Source: Haladaptatus salinisoli (GTDB taxonomy: Archaea > Halobacteriota > Halobacteria > Halobacteriales > Haladaptataceae). Taken from it: a DNA stretch of 64,000 nt. Both the position numbers and the translations under genes were made by a program. Location: positions 1 to 64,000 of the forward strand of contig NZ_CP085327.1 in the NCBI RefSeq assembly GCF_020614375.1. The letters run 5' to 3'. This document shows positions 32,857-63,978 of the stretch, piece after piece. The notes below the pieces were generated by a model. It worked only from the letters and a program-made list of their open reading frames with translations, was not told where the DNA came from and did not search any database. Each line of letters starts with the position of its first letter. Within the stretch, counting starts at the first letter, position 1.

Positions 32857-32882
32857 CCCGTTTTTCTGATCCACCTCGTGGC

Positions 32883-32955
32883 GAGCGTGTGGCCTAGCGG
32901 ATAGGGCGAGAGGTTCCTAACCTCTCGACCGCGGGTTCGAATCCCGCCACGCTCG
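32883..32955 (+). tRNA. tRNA-Arg (anticodon CCT)
   Basis: The acceptor stem GAGCGTG pairs with CACGCTC, with discriminator G. The anticodon stem AGAGG/CCTCT encloses the loop TTCCTAA with anticodon CCT. The T arm is GCGGG-TTCGAAT-CCCGC. It has no intron, and the CCA is not encoded. It sits between tatA and the pilus operon. Confidence 0.95.
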
Positions 32956-33151
32956 TATTCGTCGCTCGCGGAATCGAACGGTCGAGCGCCGAGTCTCCCC
33001 CCGCATCTTTCGTGTCTGGAATCGATATATTACTCCGAAGTGTCCGATGAAAATCGCGGTACCCGAAGACGATACTCGCGAACGTGAATGTTTACACATG
33101 TATATTAATTTTAACAAGGTTTTTTAATGGATTAGTGATTGACGGTACTCA

Positions 33152-49904: not shown

Positions 49905-52007
49905 ATGAAGATTGAAAAATTACTGGACAGGGTTGAGTCCAATGCTATCGTTCTCCCGGAATTCCAGCGCGAATTTGTCTGGAAACGCCAGCAGGCAAAA
50001 GCACTGATGGATTCATTATATAAGGGGTATCCAATTGGCGGTCTCCTCACCTGGGAAACCGAGAATCCTCCTGAAATCAAGAACGACGCGATTGATGAGG
50101 AAAAACAGGCGCTCTTTGAGATTCTTCTTGATGGTCAACAACGATTGACGGTTCTCTATATGCTCCTTATGGACGAGATACCACCTTACTACGATGAGTC
50201 CGACATTGAAAATGACCCTCGCAAACTGTATTTCAACGTCGAAACTGCTGAATTTCACTTCGAAAATAAGCGAGTCCGCGAGGGGACGGTATGGGTAAAG
50301 GTCACTGACTGCTTCACCGACGAAATCAGTGCCATCTCCATTGCTCGGAGTGTAGTGGGAGACGATGACCCGGAAGAAGTGCTTCAAATCTCGGAGCAGT
50401 ACGAAAAGCAGTTGAAACAGCTTCAGAACGTCGGTACCAATGACATCCCAGTCGAGACCCTTCCGAAATCCGCTGATATCCATCAGGCCATCGAACTCTT
50501 CGACAAAATCAACTCGCAAGGGACGCACCTGAGTGATGCGGAATTGGCACTTGCACACATGAGTGCGGAGTGGCCGCATATCCGACGACACATGAAGGAA
50601 AAGCAGGCGAAACTCGCCGAGCGAGGGTTCGATTTTGACCTCAACTTCTACGTGAAGTGCATGATTGGTACTATCACACAGACGATGACCTATGAGCAGG
50701 TCTATGATACTCCCCGAGAGATATTGGAAGCAAAGTGGCGCAGTCTCGCGAAGGATGATGGTGTCCTCGATTACCTCGTGAACGTTCTTCGAAATGAGGC
50801 TCACATTCCAAACTCAGACTACATCAATACCCGCGACGTTCTCATCCCCTTCATCGTCTACCTCGACAAGACGAACCGGCAAATTACTCAGCAGGAGAAG
50901 AAGGAATTTATCCGGTGGTTGTATGCCGCGATGATGTGGACCCGGTACAGTGGCTCGTCCGATTCCACTGTCGAACATGACCTTTCGCTGCTCGATAATC
51001 CGTCACCGACGAAGGACCTGATGCAAGAAATCAAAAACGACCGAGGCCGGATTGAGGTCCAAGCCTCCGACCTCCGGGGACGAGGGAAACGAACGCGACG
51101 ATTCTACAATATGGTTCGAATGGTTACCCGTGCAAACAAGCCGGTTGACTGGAAAACAGGTGAGCCGCTCGTCGGGAGTTTCCGTCTTGAGTCACACCAT
51201 ATCTTCCCGAAATCCCGTCTGTATGAGGAGTACGATGCCGGACAGTCAGAACACCGAAAGCTCGTCAACGAAATCGCCAACCGAGCGTTCCTTACCCCCG
51301 AGACAAACAAGAAGCTAGGCGACACGCTGCCAGAAGCGTATCTCCCAGAGGTCAAAGAGAGTCACCCCGATGCACTCAAGTCGCAGTTCATCCCTGACAA
51401 TCCTGAACTGTGGAAGGTCGAAAATTATGAAGACTTCCTCGCGAAGCGGCGTGAAAAACTTGCGACAGCCATCAACGACTACATGGAGAGTCTCATCACT
51501 GATGGCGGTGGAAAGAAGCGAGAATCTATCGAGGACCTCCTCGCACAAGGCGAGAATGCTCGCGTCGAATTCAAGGAAACGTTCCTCTACGATGTGTACC
51601 GTGACCAACCGAATAAAGAGTTAAAGGCGGAAGTCGTCAAGGAAATCGCTTCATTTGCGAATTCCGATGGTGGTGTCGTCATCATCGGTGTTGAGGATGA
51701 GACACATGAACCAGTCGGTATCGACCGCGACCTCAAGTTGATGAAGAAGGGAAAGGACTCGTTTGAACTGCAACTCAACCGCGAAATTTCGAACCGCCTC
51801 GGAAAGATGATGGCAGCGGCCTATACACACCTCTCCTTCGAAGAAGTGGATGGGAAGACGGTGTGTGTCGTTTGGGTCGATGATAGTCCTGACCCTGTCT
51901 ACTTTGAGGATGGAGACGAGGAGAAATTCTATGCTCGGGCAGGGAGTTCGTCAGAACCCTTGGGAATTCAGGACGCGAATCGGTATATTCAGCGGAATTG
52001 GAACTGA
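49905..52007 (+). CDS. DUF262-HNH nuclease fused to Schlafen AlbA_2 domain
   Basis: A 700-residue protein. Residues ~1-200 form the GmrSD-type DUF262 domain with DGQQRL at 76-81 (ParB-like NTP site). An HNH motif lies at about 429 (ESHHIFPKSRLYEEY, then NRAFLTPETNKKLGDTLPEA). From about 545 to the end is a Schlafen AlbA_2 module (NARVEFKETFLYDVYRDQP, then IASFANSDGGVVIIGVEDE). GmrSD enzymes cut modified DNA. It is a likely type IV-like restriction protein; the AlbA_2 fusion is unusual. AT-rich spacer upstream, ATG 49905. Confidence 0.85.
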   Translation: MKIEKLLDRVESNAIVLPEFQREFVWKRQQAKALMDSLYKGYPIGGLLTWETENPPEIKNDAIDEEKQALFEILLDGQQRLTVLYMLLMDEIPPYYDESDIENDPRKLYFNVETAEFHFENKRVREGTVWVKVTDCFTDEISAISIARSVVGDDDPEEVLQISEQYEKQLKQLQNVGTNDIPVETLPKSADIHQAIELFDKINSQGTHLSDAELALAHMSAEWPHIRRHMKEKQAKLAERGFDFDLNFYVKCMIGTITQTMTYEQVYDTPREILEAKWRSLAKDDGVLDYLVNVLRNEAHIPNSDYINTRDVLIPFIVYLDKTNRQITQQEKKEFIRWLYAAMMWTRYSGSSDSTVEHDLSLLDNPSPTKDLMQEIKNDRGRIEVQASDLRGRGKRTRRFYNMVRMVTRANKPVDWKTGEPLVGSFRLESHHIFPKSRLYEEYDAGQSEHRKLVNEIANRAFLTPETNKKLGDTLPEAYLPEVKESHPDALKSQFIPDNPELWKVENYEDFLAKRREKLATAINDYMESLITDGGGKKRESIEDLLAQGENARVEFKETFLYDVYRDQPNKELKAEVVKEIASFANSDGGVVIIGVEDETHEPVGIDRDLKLMKKGKDSFELQLNREISNRLGKMMAAAYTHLSFEEVDGKTVCVVWVDDSPDPVYFEDGDEEKFYARAGSSSEPLGIQDANRYIQRNWN

Positions 52008-57968: not shown

Positions 57969-60900
57969 TTAGAAGACCTCTAAGTAGTCCTCGATGACTT
58001 CGCGCTCGCCCTCAGTAAGCTTGAACAGGTTGTACACAGCCTCGTCTATCTCAGCTTCCAATTCCTCGATGCTCGTTTCTTCGACTGTCGCTCGGTCCCG
58101 CTCAAGTGCGTCGAGGAGTTCTTGCACGCCGTCATCAGTTTCTGGAATCGGGATGGCCTGTTCTTCTCCCTTTTTTACGTTGCGGCCATCGACGGCGGCG
58201 TGAACGTACTTCGCTTTGCGTTTGCGTTCCTCGCGGTCACCAGTATCCATTTGTGGTGCAGTAATTTCATCGGAACGCCCTGCAGTAACCACATAGCGAC
58301 CATCGTCAAGTTCTTCAATATCGGCATTAACGGGATAGCGGCGGGTCTGCCACTCATAGTCAATGTAGCTGATAGTTCCGCCATAGTTGTCCATATATTT
58401 GTTCGGGAAGCTTCTAACTCTATTTTCTACATCGATTATTTTTCGTATCGTTTCCACCAGTTCACCAATTTTAGTTTCCTGCTCTCCACCGGTTTTGACT
58501 GGAAGACGTTCTTGATAACGAGTAAGGAATTGATAGTAGCCATTCTGTAGTGGCGAACTGGTTTGTTTAATGAAGAATTCAAGGGTTGATGAATTCAGTA
58601 AACCAAGTAGGAACTCAAGTTTAGGGCCAAATTCATCTATAATTTGTAAGAAGAATACTTTATTGAGGATGAATCTGCCATCTTTGTCTAGAGCGTAGTT
58701 ATTCCGCTGAGACATTTCTGGGCAAATTATCTTTTCTACCTCCATAACTTCTTCAGAATGAGGTATGTTTAGCTCATACCATTTTTTGTCCTTGTTCTTG
58801 AACGTCGCGTCCTTGCGGCTCTCAAGCGCCTCTTTATGTTGTCGTAGATATTGATGTGCGTTTGGATATTCTTCAATTTCGACACCCTCAGTATATATTA
58901 AATATTCATCTGGATAGCCCATTTGGTATCTTTTGATATCACTTCCTCTGTAAATTGGCTTTAAAATACTCTGTTCGATGTTCCACTGTTTTACTTCTTT
59001 AGCACTCAATATGAAAACGGTATTTTTACCAGTCTTGATTCCAGCCGAAATTCGCTTGGTAATTTCACTTAAGCTATTCTCGGATTTCGACTGTAGACCT
59101 CGGAACAATTCATTAGCTTCCTCAGGCGTAAATCTCCATTCTCGCTCATCCAAGTCAGAGAACGGAGTTTTATATGTCGTATAGTATTCGGAGGTGTGGC
59201 GACCGTTCTTACGGATAACATCACGGATTTCTTCAAGCACACTCTCTACTTCGGAATCATCAGGTTTCTTCCTTCCATATACTACATTTATATCATAGTC
59301 TTCTTCAGGAGTAATATTCTCTAACACAAGAATACAAGGGTAGGCAGTTGCGTCTTCGAAGAAGTTACTCATCTCATAATTTGAAAACTCATCTATTTTT
59401 ACGGTGTTTGCTAATGTCTTTCTCAATCCAGAACCATACGCTGTACTTGTGAATCGAGATGAAGTAATATAACCGAGTTTACCTCCCTCGTTTAGAAGCT
59501 CTGTTCCACGTTTAATGAAGTATATAGAGAGGTCTGCGTTACCGGAGTACACGTCCTCATAGAGTGATTGAAGAACTCTTTCCTTGTAATTCGAAAGAAT
59601 AGACTCTTTACGAACATACGGTGGATTCCCAACAACGTAGTCGTATTCCATGTAGTTCTTGACGACGAGCGAGAGAACCGTGTCCTCAAACATCTTGAAC
59701 AGGCGTCCATCACCGTGTTCGACGCGGAGATACCGAACGGTATCAAGAATGTCGTTCACGTACTCCTCGAAGAACTCCTCGACGCCCTCGTACTCACGGG
59801 TTGTATAGCGATGGATACCTTCTTCCAGTCCACCATAGTACTCCCACATCCCTTCATGCATGTGGTATTTCACCACGTCGAGGACGCCCTGTAACGCCGC
59901 ATAGTATTCTCCGAAGTTTCGAATCTCGGCGTTCATCTTAGCGGTCTGGTGCTTCGGCATTCGAACACGCTGAACGAGGAACTCTCCTTCGCGCTCCGAT
60001 TCATCCACCTCGTCCTCGTCAACTTCGACCGGGAGCGGAACGGGAATCAGCACATCCTGATTATCCTCAGTCATCGCGTCGAACGTCATCTGGGTCGTGT
60101 CGTCGTCCCCGAGGTCGATGCCCGTCAGTTCCCGTTCGTTCCGAAGCGTGTCAGTGCGGAAAATGGGCAGGCGTCGAATCGTGAAATCAGCGTTGCTTCG
60201 CTTCGCTTCCCGATACTTTGGCAGGATGGCGACCATGAACCGAATCTGAGCCATCAGCACTGCGAACGGGTGAATGTCCAACCCGACGATATGCGGGCGG
60301 GTACAGAGTTCGGTGAGGTGTTTCACCCAGTCCGGGTCGTCGTTGTATCGCTCCACGTCCTCGATGTACCGCTTCACAGCTTCCACGAGGAACGTCCCAG
60401 ACCCACAGGACGGGTCGATAATTCGCTCGCTGGAAACACCCACGTCGTAGCCAACGCCGTCCATGATGTAGTCGATGACTGGCTGTGGCGTGTAGAACTC
60501 GCCGAGGGCCTTACGCGTTTCTGGGTCGAAGTATCGCTGGTAGAGGTTCCCGAGCGGGTCGCCTTCGATGCGGGAGAAGTCGAATTTCAGCACTGAGAAG
60601 ACGACGTGGGCCACTGCGCGACTGAACCGCTCTCGCGTTGCCCGACTCACGCGAGATACTTCACTCCCGTCCTTCGCCACGTCACGGAACCGATTGTATG
60701 GATTCTTGTGTTGACTGGCGGTCTCCTCGGCGTAGCCGTCAGTCCACCAGATGAAAATGTCGTCCTCGAATAAGCTCTCGACGAGTTGGTTCCGCATGTC
60801 CTCAATCATTCCGTTCGCCGCGACCGGATATGCATCGAGGCTAATTTCGCCATCGAATCCACCGAGCGCGTCGAAGTACCGCCGGAGCCCTTTATTAGTT

Positions 60901-61721
60901 GGGAAGAACGCGTGGTCTACAGTAGCTTTCGATAGGAGGAGTCGTGCGAGGAGTGCGTGACCGCTCTCCAGACAAAACATGAAATCCCGAAGCGATTGCT
61001 TGCCGTCAACAAATGCATCCCACGACTTCGGTATCTCATCAGGCTCGCTGGCGTAACTCGCTTCCCAGAAATCGTAGGCCCCTTTCACGAACTTCGCTTC
61101 GTTCTCGTCACGGAGTTCCCGAAGTAGGTCAACCATCGCAGTCACGAGGTCGGCGAACGGACTATCCTCTTCCAATCGGAATGTGTCGAAGAAGTGTTCG
61201 CGCCCAAGTTCGCTGTCCAATTCCACTGCGTCGAGATTGTCGAGGTATTCGTTGACGCTTTCGGGATTCGTGATGTCCCACTCCGGTTTTTCGAGAGCAG
61301 CGACAATGTCTGCGGCATGGCTTTCGGTCGCTTCTTCGAGAGAGATTGCAAGCATCTCCGTGTGACCGTCACGGCTGTAGAGTTGGAGTTTTTCGCCGTT
61401 TGTTAGAACTCCGTAGTCGGCTTTCAACTCGTCCACGTAGTGAAAGAGTTGGTCAGTGTGAGCGTCGAGGTCGTGTCCCGATGTTTTGAACTCGTAGATT
61501 GCAGTAACGGCTTCATTAGCGTCCAGTGTCACGTAGTCCGGTCGTCGGTTATCTGGAAGTGTCCACTCGCTCCGCAAGTCGTGTCCTGCACCGGAATAGC
61601 CAAGGAGTGTGTAGAAATTCTCGTTCATAAATGCATTCTCCACGTCCTTCTCGCTCATATCATCGCCAATGCGGGCTGCAATGCTGTGGAGCGCATTATG
61701 AACTGACGACGTTTGGGTCAT
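57969..61721 (-). CDS. Single-chain restriction-modification enzyme (type IIG, Eco57I-like)
   Basis: A 1250-residue protein. The N-terminal nuclease region has D62 and E77-x-K79 (RRPDYVTLDANEAVTAIYEF then KTSG), a PD-(D/E)XK site. The methyltransferase follows with SAM motif DPSCGSGTFL at about 435 and catalytic NPPY at about 697. The remainder (residues ~850-1150) is a target-recognition domain. Both activities in one chain mark type IIG/IIL enzymes. I start at ATG 61721; 62 upstream in-frame codons read as non-coding. No separate specificity subunit is seen nearby. Confidence 0.88.
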   Translation of the reverse strand: MTQTSSVHNALHSIAARIGDDMSEKDVENAFMNENFYTLLGYSGAGHDLRSEWTLPDNRRPDYVTLDANEAVTAIYEFKTSGHDLDAHTDQLFHYVDELKADYGVLTNGEKLQLYSRDGHTEMLAISLEEATESHAADIVAALEKPEWDITNPESVNEYLDNLDAVELDSELGREHFFDTFRLEEDSPFADLVTAMVDLLRELRDENEAKFVKGAYDFWEASYASEPDEIPKSWDAFVDGKQSLRDFMFCLESGHALLARLLLSKATVDHAFFPTNKGLRRYFDALGGFDGEISLDAYPVAANGMIEDMRNQLVESLFEDDIFIWWTDGYAEETASQHKNPYNRFRDVAKDGSEVSRVSRATRERFSRAVAHVVFSVLKFDFSRIEGDPLGNLYQRYFDPETRKALGEFYTPQPVIDYIMDGVGYDVGVSSERIIDPSCGSGTFLVEAVKRYIEDVERYNDDPDWVKHLTELCTRPHIVGLDIHPFAVLMAQIRFMVAILPKYREAKRSNADFTIRRLPIFRTDTLRNERELTGIDLGDDDTTQMTFDAMTEDNQDVLIPVPLPVEVDEDEVDESEREGEFLVQRVRMPKHQTAKMNAEIRNFGEYYAALQGVLDVVKYHMHEGMWEYYGGLEEGIHRYTTREYEGVEEFFEEYVNDILDTVRYLRVEHGDGRLFKMFEDTVLSLVVKNYMEYDYVVGNPPYVRKESILSNYKERVLQSLYEDVYSGNADLSIYFIKRGTELLNEGGKLGYITSSRFTSTAYGSGLRKTLANTVKIDEFSNYEMSNFFEDATAYPCILVLENITPEEDYDINVVYGRKKPDDSEVESVLEEIRDVIRKNGRHTSEYYTTYKTPFSDLDEREWRFTPEEANELFRGLQSKSENSLSEITKRISAGIKTGKNTVFILSAKEVKQWNIEQSILKPIYRGSDIKRYQMGYPDEYLIYTEGVEIEEYPNAHQYLRQHKEALESRKDATFKNKDKKWYELNIPHSEEVMEVEKIICPEMSQRNNYALDKDGRFILNKVFFLQIIDEFGPKLEFLLGLLNSSTLEFFIKQTSSPLQNGYYQFLTRYQERLPVKTGGEQETKIGELVETIRKIIDVENRVRSFPNKYMDNYGGTISYIDYEWQTRRYPVNADIEELDDGRYVVTAGRSDEITAPQMDTGDREERKRKAKYVHAAVDGRNVKKGEEQAIPIPETDDGVQELLDALERDRATVEETSIEELEAEIDEAVYNLFKLTEGEREVIEDYLEVF

Positions 61722-61953
61722 ATCTTGCTGGAGACAGTGATACATTAAAAATCTCGTGTTTGAATTACAGATGACCCTCACGTAGATGGAGTTCGGGCGG
61801 TACACTTCGACTCTGAACCTACAAATGGTTCGCAGGTCATCGCACCGGTTTTGCCGAGAGTACACATCCGTGGAAGAGGCGAGAAGAGAGGAGAACGCCG
61901 CTATCAAAGACCCACACTGTTAGATGGTGTTAAGTCCCTGTTTCGGGGGTATT

Positions 61954-62036
61954 CTCGTGGTTACTCTCGAACTGAACGACACAAACAGTAGCCGCTGTTT
62001 AACTGTGAACTGATTGTCGTATTGCCGGAGGTAGCC
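61954..62036 (+). promoter_or_regulatory. Conserved upstream block of first secreted-protein pair
   Basis: Starts TCGTGGTTACTCTCGA and ends CGGAGGTAGCC directly before the ATG. It is about 70% identical to the block at 62817-62898 and of nearly the same length (83 and 82 bp). A TATA-like GTTTAA near 61999 and an SD GGAGGT 4 bp before the ATG predict a short leadered mRNA, unusual here. Confidence 0.65.
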
Positions 62037-62372
62037 ATGAAAGCACTCAAATTACTCGTGGCATTCGCCGTCATCACCAGTATTGCCGTCGGTGGCGTTG
62101 CCGCGCAAGAACAAGAAAACGAATTCGAGCAAGGCGCTGACGCCGACGTTGACCAAGAACAGTACGTCTCGCAGACGAACGTGAACGTCCAAGACGATAA
62201 CACCGCCGTGGCGCTTGGCAAGTGGAGTGATGCGACGGCAGTGCAGGCAAGTGAGCAGTCCAACAGCAACTCGCAGACTGGTGTCGCAATCGCCTCGAAC
62301 TACGCTAAAGATGTCGAGCAGGAGAATGAGGTTGAGGACGGTGGGGGCCGTGGTATTGGTGGTGGCAGATAA
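62037..62372 (+). CDS. Secreted Q/N-rich curlin-like repeat protein A1
   Basis: A 111-residue secreted protein. The signal MKALKLLVAFAVITSIAVGG ends in VAA-Q, then QENEFEQ and the curlin-like repeats QTNVNVQDDNTAVA and AVQASEQSNSNSQTGVAIAS-N-YAKDVEQENE. The composition is Gln/Asn/Glu/Asp/Ser-rich, without Cys. The last residues are Gly-rich. It is the first of five tandem paralogues. Curli-type fibres are the closest known analogue; function is inferred. Confidence 0.8.
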   Translation: MKALKLLVAFAVITSIAVGGVAAQEQENEFEQGADADVDQEQYVSQTNVNVQDDNTAVALGKWSDATAVQASEQSNSNSQTGVAIASNYAKDVEQENEVEDGGGRGIGGGR

Positions 62373-62387
62373 TCACGGAGAGCAGCA

Positions 62388-62639
62388 ATGAGATTGAAAC
62401 CATTCCTAACGGTCGCACTCGCAGTGGCACTCCTCTCAACAGTGTTCGCCGGTGGTGCTCTGGCACAAGATGGCGGTGACGCGGTTGCCATTCAGACGAA
62501 CGACCAGAGTAATTCGAACGCACAGACAGGAATCGCCATCGCCGAGAATACCGCTGAGGACATCGAGCAGGAAAATGAACTAGACGACAGCATACCGGTT
62601 CCACCACCACCCCAACCCAGTGACCCAGGCGAAACCTAA
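62388..62639 (+). CDS. Secreted Q/N-rich curlin-like repeat protein B1 (short)
   Basis: An 83-residue secreted paralogue, 15 bp after A1 and with an SD-like GGAG. The signal MRLKPFLTVALAVALLSTVF ends GALA-Q. Only one repeat unit follows (AVAIQTNDQSNSNAQTGIAI then ENTAEDIEQENE), lacking the N-terminal QENEFEQ of the others, and a Pro-rich tail (PVPPPPQPSDPGE). It may be a capping or nucleator-type partner, by analogy with CsgB. Confidence 0.75.
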   Translation: MRLKPFLTVALAVALLSTVFAGGALAQDGGDAVAIQTNDQSNSNAQTGIAIAENTAEDIEQENELDDSIPVPPPPQPSDPGET

Positions 62640-62816
62640 TCAAACCGCGGAGCGACAGTGACGCCGCTACCCATATTTTCCTCCGACCCACCTACACTAT
62701 TGTCCAGTAGACGCCTTTCCAGAGTGACTGTTTCAGCAGTTAGTATATCATACTAACCCGCTGACCATAGCGGTGCTCAACGACTGGAGTCTCAACCACG
62801 GATTTCGGCGGTGCTA

Positions 62817-62898
62817 TCGTGGTTACTCTCGATGTGAAGAAGATGAACGGTTGGGGCTGTTTAACAGTGCTCTGCGTGTCGTGGAGTCGGAGGTAGCC
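62817..62898 (+). promoter_or_regulatory. Duplicated upstream block of second secreted-protein group
   Basis: Copy of the block at 61954-62036: TCGTGGTTACTCTCGAT at the left, CTGTTTAACAGTG (TATA-like, near 62862) and CGGAGGTAGCC at the right, next to the ATG. Its duplication with the gene implies the group arose by tandem copying of promoter plus gene. Confidence 0.65.
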
Positions 62899-63234
62899 AT
62901 GAAAGCACTCAAATTACTCGTAGTATTTGCAGTGATGACCAGCATCGCTGTTGGCGGAGTAGCCGCGCAAGAACAAGAAAATGAGTTCGAACAGGACGCT
63001 GAGGCCGAGGTGGAGCAATACCAAGACGTCGAGCAGACAAACGTGAATGTGCAGGACGATAACCTCGCCGTGGCGGCCTGGGGTGGCGATGCAACTGCCG
63101 TGCAGGCAAGTAACCAGGCTAACGAGAACTCACAGACTGGAGTCGCGGTCGCCTCGAACTCCGCTGAAGACGTCGAGCAGGAAAACGAGATAGAAGATAG
63201 GAGTGGTGACAACAATGTTGGTGGCAGAGGGTAA
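62899..63234 (+). CDS. Secreted Q/N-rich curlin-like repeat protein A2
   Basis: A 111-residue close paralogue of A1. The signal MKALKLLVVFAVMTSIAVGG differs at only two positions from A1. The mature part has QENEFEQDAEAEVEQYQDVE, then QTNVNVQDDNLAVAAW and AVQASNQANENSQTGVAVAS-N-SAEDVEQENE. An SD GGAGGT precedes the ATG. The in-frame upstream codons to 62773 are part of the control block, not coding. Confidence 0.8.
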   Translation: MKALKLLVVFAVMTSIAVGGVAAQEQENEFEQDAEAEVEQYQDVEQTNVNVQDDNLAVAAWGGDATAVQASNQANENSQTGVAVASNSAEDVEQENEIEDRSGDNNVGGRG

Positions 63235-63243
63235 CCCCAACGG

Positions 63244-63612
63244 ATGACAATGAAACTGAAAGCACTCTTAACGGTCACACTTGCGATAGCACTTCTCTCG
63301 ACAGTACTCGTTGGCAGCTCGATGGCCCAAGAGCAAGCAAACGAATTCGAGCAGGAGGCTGACGCTGAGGTCGAGCAATACCAGGATGTTGAGCAGCTCA
63401 ACGTAAACGAACAGTCAGACAACGTCGCAGCAAGCAGTGGCGGTGATGCAACTGCCGTACAGGCGAGCGAGCAGTTCAATAGCAACTCGCAGACCGGCGT
63501 TGCAGTCGCGTCGAACACTGCCGAGGACATTGAGCAGGAGAACGAGGCGGATGATGAATGTGATGGTATTCTACTACCGGACGGCACTTGCCGACCACCA
63601 GCGCCCAGCTAA
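63244..63612 (+). CDS. Secreted Q/N-rich curlin-like repeat protein B2
   Basis: A 122-residue secreted paralogue, 9 bp after A2. The signal MTMKLKALLTVTLAIALLST ends SMA-Q. The mature part carries QEQANEFEQEADAEVEQYQD, QLNVNEQSDNVAASS and AVQASEQFNSNSQTGVAVAS-N-TAEDIEQENE. The C-terminus has two Cys (DECDGILLPDGTCRPPAPS), unlike its siblings. An internal ATG at 63250 is an alternative start. Confidence 0.78.
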   Translation: MTMKLKALLTVTLAIALLSTVLVGSSMAQEQANEFEQEADAEVEQYQDVEQLNVNEQSDNVAASSGGDATAVQASEQFNSNSQTGVAVASNTAEDIEQENEADDECDGILLPDGTCRPPAPS

Positions 63613-63627
63613 TTACGGAGTAAACCA

Positions 63628-63978
63628 ATGAGACTGAAACAACTTCTCACCCTTGGCATTGCACTGGTACTCGTGACGACGGTTTTTGCTGGCAATGTCG
63701 CTGCGCAAGAACAAGAAAATGAGTTCGAGCAGGACGCCGAGGCCGAAGTAGACCAGTATCAAGATGTATCGCAGACGAACGTGAACATCCAGGAAGACAA
63801 CACTGCTATAGCAGCGTGGGGCGGTGACGCCACTGCTGTGCAAGCGGGTGAACAGAGTAACGAAAATTCGCAGACCGGCATCGCAGTCGCGTCAAACTAT
63901 GCTGAAGATATTAGTCAGGAGAATGAAATCGACTTCGAAGACAACAGCCCGCCACCCCCGCCACCGATTGACGTCTAA
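63628..63978 (+). CDS. Secreted Q/N-rich curlin-like repeat protein B3
   Basis: A 116-residue secreted paralogue with an SD-like GGAG upstream. The signal MRLKQLLTLGIALVLVTTVF ends NVAA-Q. The mature part carries QENEFEQDAEAEVDQYQDVS, QTNVNIQEDNTAIAAW and AVQAGEQSNENSQTGIAVAS-N-YAEDISQENE, ending in a poly-Pro tail (PPPPPPIDV). The array reaches within 22 bp of the window edge and may continue. Confidence 0.78.
   Translation: MRLKQLLTLGIALVLVTTVFAGNVAAQEQENEFEQDAEAEVDQYQDVSQTNVNIQEDNTAIAAWGGDATAVQAGEQSNENSQTGIAVASNYAEDISQENEIDFEDNSPPPPPPIDV

Follow-up and report, generated by a model that had tools for sequence, protein, structure and literature searches.

Five neighboring genes on the + strand at 62037–63978 of contig NZ_CP085327.1 of Haladaptatus salinisoli (RefSeq assembly GCF_020614375.1; the window is the whole stretch analyzed, positions 1 to 64,000 of that contig) encode small proteins with secretion-type starts, as read from the open reading frames (ORFs). 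They belong to a family for which we found no Pfam or NCBIfam model and which is so far known only from haloarchaea. The existence of the family is practically certain, and it has two classes, short one-repeat proteins of about 110 residues and long proteins of about 500–660 residues. We somewhat favor the reading that it forms a haloarchaeal extracellular polymer of the functional-amyloid type, in which the long protein serves as a seed or an anchor and each short one forms a single layer; that each repeat is one beta layer that stacks appears fairly probable, and secretion, judged from the signal-like starts only, is very likely. The family, found in Natrialbaceae, Haladaptataceae and some others, would then supply concrete genes and a mechanism in which a five-layer protein seeds single layers. 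If this is true, archaea of high salt have a functional amyloid of their own, 20–25% acidic and unlike curli and FapC in sequence.

Repeat pattern and arm order

The long proteins have a fixed architecture: 53 of the 54 distinct ones contain exactly five repeats, the exception being the 405-residue ORF of locus L140, with two. The median repeat is 58 residues long and the median linkers 42, 8, 40 and 44 residues, the second ranging from 4 to 34 and the other three from 31 to 77. Repeat n matches the repeat at the same position in other proteins better (mean 58%) than it matches its sister repeats within one protein (46%), so the putative layers have fixed identities. Window genes 1, 3, 4 and 5 encode one repeat each, and gene 2 only the second half of one.

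We read the pattern within the repeat from alignment A4, whose 84 rows are the five window proteins and 79 others chosen by eye (69 of 84 repeats, together with 10 of 34 short proteins, whose arms follow the order seen in the window). In gene 5 numbering, the first arm (s1) conserves Q35, A37, A39, V41, Q43, Q45, V47, Q49, N51, N53 and Q55; after a two-residue break come A58, A60 and A62 (gene 5 has N at 58) and a Gly turn at 65–66, and the second long arm (s3) conserves A68, A70, Q72, S74 (G in gene 5), Q76, N78, N80, Q82, G84, A86, A88 and N90. Mean column entropy separated by parity was 0.61 vs 2.89 bits over residues 35–55 and 0.61 vs 3.18 bits over residues 68–90, a difference that none of 100,000 column shuffles equaled in either arm. 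From this near-strict alternation, one face fixed and the other free, we infer buried, stacked strands.

Both arms were found in 73 of 82 short ORFs examined, in the window order in 45 and reversed in 28. This sample is 82 of the 87 distinct ORFs collected by hidden Markov model (HMM), and some of the assigned orders may be wrong: the HMM may recruit via the signal peptide, the A4 rows minus the window five served to build the arm models, permuted ORFs score lower, and QxNxNxQ is common to both arm models. The reversed order in 28 of 73 fits two arms packed in one layer. The family has the secreted imperfect repeats that mark functional amyloids, with signal peptides judged by eye and by motif.

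Long genes and their divergent short partners

A long ORF of at least 400 residues is present at 55 of the 58 loci recovered by the genome scan described below, 20 with an RR[GDNS][YF] signal and 35 without. Counting only loci with at least 1.5 kb of upstream sequence, 29 of 34 long genes lacking the RR signal have a divergent short secreted-type gene with a family motif no more than 2.5 kb upstream (14 of them have two) vs 1 of 18 with the signal; since the paired species are related by tree and one species contributes two identical copies, L114 and L115, the 29 pairings represent conservation, not independent events. The same criterion in control flank (484 kb, more than 5 kb away) picked none of 79 signal-bearing ORFs. 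The non-RR long genes without such a partner are at L116, L127, L129, L140 and L141. In the window's own genome, two short genes on C4 diverge from one long gene.

The RR class is probably of twin-arginine type, by motif reading; in six long proteins scanned, the single NCBIfam match of that kind fell under its cut-off. PGF-CTERM was above cut-off in two of the six (L018 and L026), as was no other domain family in any of them. It is also annotated on plasmid-borne long genes of Halomicrococcus (the L018 gene) and Natrononativus, and 2 of 54 long proteins of named loci end in PGFG, so surface anchoring is a minority trait. When neighbors were clustered, the long gene and a frame antisense to it were the only ones to occur at more than 23 of the 58 loci, and many clusters were shadow frames.

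Three side observations concern the long genes. In the long proteins, similar non-repeat motifs stand before repeat 1 and between repeats 1 and 2 (LYLVFGAD..LESW and VYIVFAG..FSGW, about residues 46–60 and 139–161 of the L103 protein), perhaps a duplicated small domain or cap. At L106 (10001–11029, Haladaptatus halobius chromosome 2), the relative of the C4 long gene shows no intact long ORF, yet a short gene lies divergent upstream. At L110 (4767–9401, Natrinema gelatinilyticum), four same-strand short secreted-type genes stand in a row upstream of the long gene, multiplied like the window array.

Distribution of the family

Pfam and NCBIfam scans of the five window proteins returned only matches far under cut-off. 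At an E cut-off of 0.01, 31 of the 146 genomes of relatives matched a profile of the five. Six of these (G029, G043, G062, G078, G111 and G122) had one weak match each (E 3e-4 to 1e-2), probably false, and the translated matches of three of them (L027, L029 and L031) showed no family repeat; we therefore count 25 to 28 genomes as positive. All nine genomes of the genus Haladaptatus matched at E 1e-10. The long-protein profile matched 84 of 391 genomes of the class, 78 in Natrialbaceae and 3, 2 and 1 in three further families.

We also searched the genomes of 84,980 species of bacteria and archaea with two peptide patterns, which detect only members that fit them. Of the 128 stretches obtained, 61 were confirmed; they fall at 58 loci, every one haloarchaeal; among them are Haladaptatus, Halomicrococcus, Natrinema, Natrialba, Natronococcus, Natronorubrum, Halegenticoccus, Halogranum, Halalkalicoccus and others. 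The wide haloarchaeal homologues with the same kind of clustering that the sequence-only reading had named as support thus exist, and not just as isolated genes. The window's genome has three long genes. Beyond the window it also has short genes or remnants: C4 carries two, C7 three (one of them intact, the others degraded) and contig C1 a divergent one. In viral contigs, 110 and 40 stretches matched a pattern and none encoded a relative, so a viral origin is unsupported.

We recognized no description of the family in the literature, in a search that mostly lay outside subscription journals. One unnamed archaeal protein is reported in the available part of PMC3521004 to have regularly spaced curli-like repeats, and it may or may not be a member.

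Comparison with known amyloids

The sequence-only reading had seen curlin-like motifs in these proteins. The Q/N patterning on which it drew holds up; the family motifs are QxNxNxQ and QxQxVxQxN, and membership among the curlins is contradicted. PF07012 had no match in the window's own genome or in any of 97 genomes of the class (own included), with a positive E. coli control. Alignment by hhalign to CsgA/CsgB gave a probability of 0.7% over 12 signal-peptide columns only, a weak test given the two rows on the CsgA/B side. QxGxxN, QX10Q and N-x-psi-x-psi-x-Q, as defined in the available parts of PMC10192328 and PMC3521004, were each absent from the five window proteins; among the 79 other A4 rows, none of the three rose above the shuffle range (QxGxxN 7 vs a shuffled mean of 4.4, maximum 9; QX10Q 48 vs 85.4; the E. 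coli CsgA and CsgB control had 10 and 17). The relaxed form [NAGS]-x-psi-x-psi-x-Q was enriched both in the window proteins (9 vs a shuffled mean of 2.7, maximum 10) and in the other rows (165 vs 71.4, maximum 93). CsgG was absent from the window's own genome, with 4 of 14 control genomes positive; to our knowledge, an outer membrane is not to be expected in archaea. TasA/camelysin (PF12389) had no match in the same genome, with a positive B. subtilis control.

Curli subunits, as described in the available parts of PMC10192328 and PMC3521004, are likewise secreted and imperfectly repeated, with a conserved Q/N ladder. CsgA, too, has five repeats, and the curli locus also consists of two divergent parts. 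The repeat length differs (about 23 vs 58 residues), and the family lacks the curlin motif, its kernel spacing, PF07012 and CsgG. FapC/FapB of Pseudomonas (PDB 9u4u and 9nqd), in what the available part of PMC12392863 describes, share with it imperfect repeats of some 50–60 residues with linkers between them and conserved Asn/Gln. FapC has one repeat per cross-beta layer with the Asn/Gln facing inward, an arrangement only proposed for the haloarchaeal proteins, and is described there with three repeats, whereas the family has five or one and is archaeal and acidic. By analogy, FapC may be the closest mechanical counterpart, closer than curli with their 7-residue motifs and 23-residue repeats, without detectable homology: PDB sequence searches gave one weak chance match each, among them those with profiles A3 and A4 (E up to 1 and 10), where it was an unrelated chain and no FapC appeared. 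A3 is the long-protein alignment, which takes 52 of the 58 loci (L115 is omitted as identical to L114, and L106, L140, L141, L143 and L144 because their ORFs are interrupted, short or have odd boundaries). The MspA sheath amyloids of Methanospirillum and Methanosaeta are likewise archaeal, secreted, imperfectly repeated and present as paralogues, but by the description in the available part of PMC6242892 they form a filament sheath and space their amyloidogenic segments by about 25 residues. A haloarchaeal precedent is Haloferax volcanii, whose biofilm has a matrix reported to take up Congo red and thioflavin T; HVO_1403 is the only potential determinant named for it in the available part of PMC4180959.

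Structure prediction

AlphaFold2, given the 52-row alignment, built the long protein of L103 (H. litoreus) as a beta-rich model (best of five: mean predicted local distance difference test, pLDDT, 57.5; predicted template-modeling score, pTM, 0.48). Repeats 2–5 each have two strands of 23–27 residues and repeat 1 has strands of 18, 6 and 25, with pLDDT mostly 70–90 inside the repeats. For gene 5, with the 84 rows of A4, only the signal helix was built, with zero strands and a pTM of 0.25. These two low-confidence models suggest that strands pair between repeats, because hairpins within a repeat should appear in a single-repeat model and none do. Of what the sequence-only reading had named as support, a beta-solenoid with stacked Q/N rungs, the models show a beta-rich long relative; repeat-to-repeat stacking is inferred, not seen. 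A confident unrelated globular fold, which would have spoken against that reading, did not appear in these models, whose confidence is low.

Stacked layers and their alternatives

In the mechanism that we propose, each repeat would be a flat beta layer that runs from the long arm s1 through a two-residue arc, a short strand s2 and a Gly turn to the long arm s3, with the invariant Q, N and A residues on one face, and layers would stack via backbone hydrogen bonds. The five-repeat long protein would stack its own layers and serve as a seed, held in some cases by a PGF-CTERM cell-surface anchor. The Sec-type short proteins of the window would be single layers, probably unable to fold alone, that are added outside the cell onto the seed or onto one another to give a fibre or matrix. 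A more detailed version, which we put forward tentatively as a possibility, is a salt-adapted amyloid system in which labor is divided by layer number: the five-layer protein would act as template for single-layer subunits, exported by Sec, unable to fold before they dock and interchangeable in arm order, to make the matrix amyloid of Natrialbaceae/Haladaptataceae biofilms. In that case amyloid chemistry would have arisen separately in archaea under multimolar salt. The five-layer protein would then be exported by a twin-arginine-type route, by a Sec-type route with divergent subunit genes, or PGF-CTERM-anchored; a twin-arginine-type signal would imply that it is folded inside the cell.

Several results weigh against such a polymer. 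The remaining four models of the L103 protein have mean pLDDT values from 50.1 down to 31.4, the strands may yet form hairpins inside one repeat, and the absence of strands for gene 5 may carry little information given its pTM. Foldseek against the PDB (E up to 10) gave seven matches, and its top three, FapC 9u4u, FapC 9nqd and CsgA 8c50, are not significant (E 1.5–1.6, probability 0.01–0.03, query template-modeling score 0.07–0.08, root-mean-square deviation 21–33 Å), the other four being unrelated proteins at E 3.2–4.0; 79 matches among viral structures included none at E 0.001. No long gene was seen in the flanks of the window array, and no dedicated chaperone or export partner was recognized by neighbor clustering and in annotated regions, the only places where it was sought. 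The pairings, as said, are not independent events. Haloferax, the haloarchaeon cited for a matrix that takes up amyloid dyes, is not among the 58 loci, and no experimental data on these proteins turned up.

The proteins might instead be non-polymerizing beta modules, surface adhesins or S-layer-associated, with the long proteins as adhesins and the short ones as decoys or coat components. PGF-CTERM on some long proteins would suit this, as would the N-terminal non-repeat motif LYLVFGAD...W with its similar second copy between repeats 1 and 2, and linkers 1, 3 and 4 could space independent modules. We nevertheless think it unlikely, since linker 2 has a median of only 8 residues (4–34), the six scanned long proteins match no domain family besides PGF-CTERM, the invariant Q/N/A face is in our judgment not ligand-like, and AlphaFold2 gave a single repeat no strand, at low confidence.

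Strict alternation, near-invariant Q/N positions, a repeat count fixed at five and the long–short gene pairing speak against soluble, acidic, low-complexity secreted proteins that have no fixed fold and serve in hydration or in ion or metal buffering; this we hold to be improbable, even though the D+E content of 20–25%, the 0–5 aromatics per mature protein and the strandless short model agree with it. That these are true curlins, CsgA/CsgB homologues taken up from bacteria, has in its favor the Q/N/A/G-rich imperfect repeats, the small secreted subunits, the divergent layout and the enriched relaxed motif. It is very improbable nonetheless, with PF07012 absent, hhalign without a match, the curlin motifs absent or no commoner than in shuffles, CsgG missing from the genome, and 58 of 58 scan loci haloarchaeal.

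The window array and its surroundings

The five genes, their arms and the upstream regions are as follows (arms of gene 5 delimited by column entropy, the others by alignment to gene 5; upstream regions are the non-coding parts of direct repeat D3).

61941–62036, +: promoter-like region upstream of the unit of genes 1–2, copied before gene 3
62037–62372, +: gene 1, predicted secreted one-repeat protein, 111 residues (hmmsearch E 7.4e-52, model built from the five)
62130–62192, +: gene 1, arm s1
62232–62300, +: gene 1, arm s3
62388–62639, +: gene 2, predicted secreted half-repeat protein, second arm only, 83 residues (best match to model positions 60–116 only)
62481–62549, +: gene 2, sole arm, s3
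62803–62898, +: promoter-like region upstream of the unit of genes 3–5
62899–63234, +: gene 3, predicted secreted one-repeat protein, 111 residues
62992–63054, +: gene 3, arm s1
63091–63159, +: gene 3, arm s3
63250–63612, +: gene 4, predicted secreted one-repeat protein with two Cys, 120 residues (122 from the upstream ATG at 63244)
63352–63414, +: gene 4, arm s1
63448–63516, +: gene 4, arm s3
63628–63978, +: gene 5, predicted secreted one-repeat protein, 116 residues
63730–63792, +: gene 5, arm s1, residues 35–55, QxAxAxVxQxQxVxQxNxNxQ
63829–63897, +: gene 5, arm s3, residues 68–90, AxAxQxSxQxNxNxQxGxAxAxN

Judged by eye, each of the five proteins starts like a signal peptide and has an A-Q junction. 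Identity to gene 1 is 50% for gene 2, 77% for gene 3, 61% for gene 4 and 65% for gene 5; the ORFs, identities and junctions bear out the original description of five adjacent secreted-type paralogues of 83–122 residues. So does the Cys count, four of the five being Cys-free and gene 4 holding the only two residues. The suggestion that gene 2 acts as a nucleator found nothing in its favor: it is a half repeat, and the five-repeat long proteins are better candidates. The mature window proteins are 19–25% Q+N, vs 6.7% for the neighboring methyltransferase ORF, and 20–25% D+E, with 0–5 aromatics each.

By the Nei-Gojobori method, dS between the window paralogues is 1.02–2.10 or saturated, dN is 0.15–0.41, and pN/pS is 0.25–0.46 in 10 of 10 pairs; it is practically certain that they are old duplicates kept by purifying selection. 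Gaps of 15 bases separate genes within the units (genes 1–2 and genes 3–5) and 259 bases lie between genes 2 and 3, and the stretch before gene 1 recurs before gene 3 as direct repeat D3 (61941–62213 and 62803–63075, 79% over 273 bases), one copy ahead of each unit; for these reasons the array looks like two transcription-like units born of duplication.

The array is flanked by a type IIG-like restriction-methylase on one side and by a 1288-residue protein with no Pfam match on the other, and some 7.7 kb beyond it comes an ORF that we take to be ribosomal protein S15, so its placement by the sequence-only reading, at the end of a mobile, defense-rich region, is fair. The methylase, directly upstream at 57969–61907, combines an Eco57I-like methylase with a TaqI_C specificity domain (type II methyltransferase, PADLOC type IIG or PglX-like). 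The 1288-residue protein downstream (L001 3105–6971; contig C1 about 65004–68870) matched neither Pfam (E 0.001) nor PADLOC (E 1e-5). Further upstream, at 32882–32956, is a tRNA-Arg (cct), the sole tRNA found in the window; speculatively, the mobile region may have integrated there. At 49905–52007 a 700-residue protein fuses GmrSD_N (DUF262-like) to Schlafen AlbA_2, with HEC-05 as its top PADLOC match.

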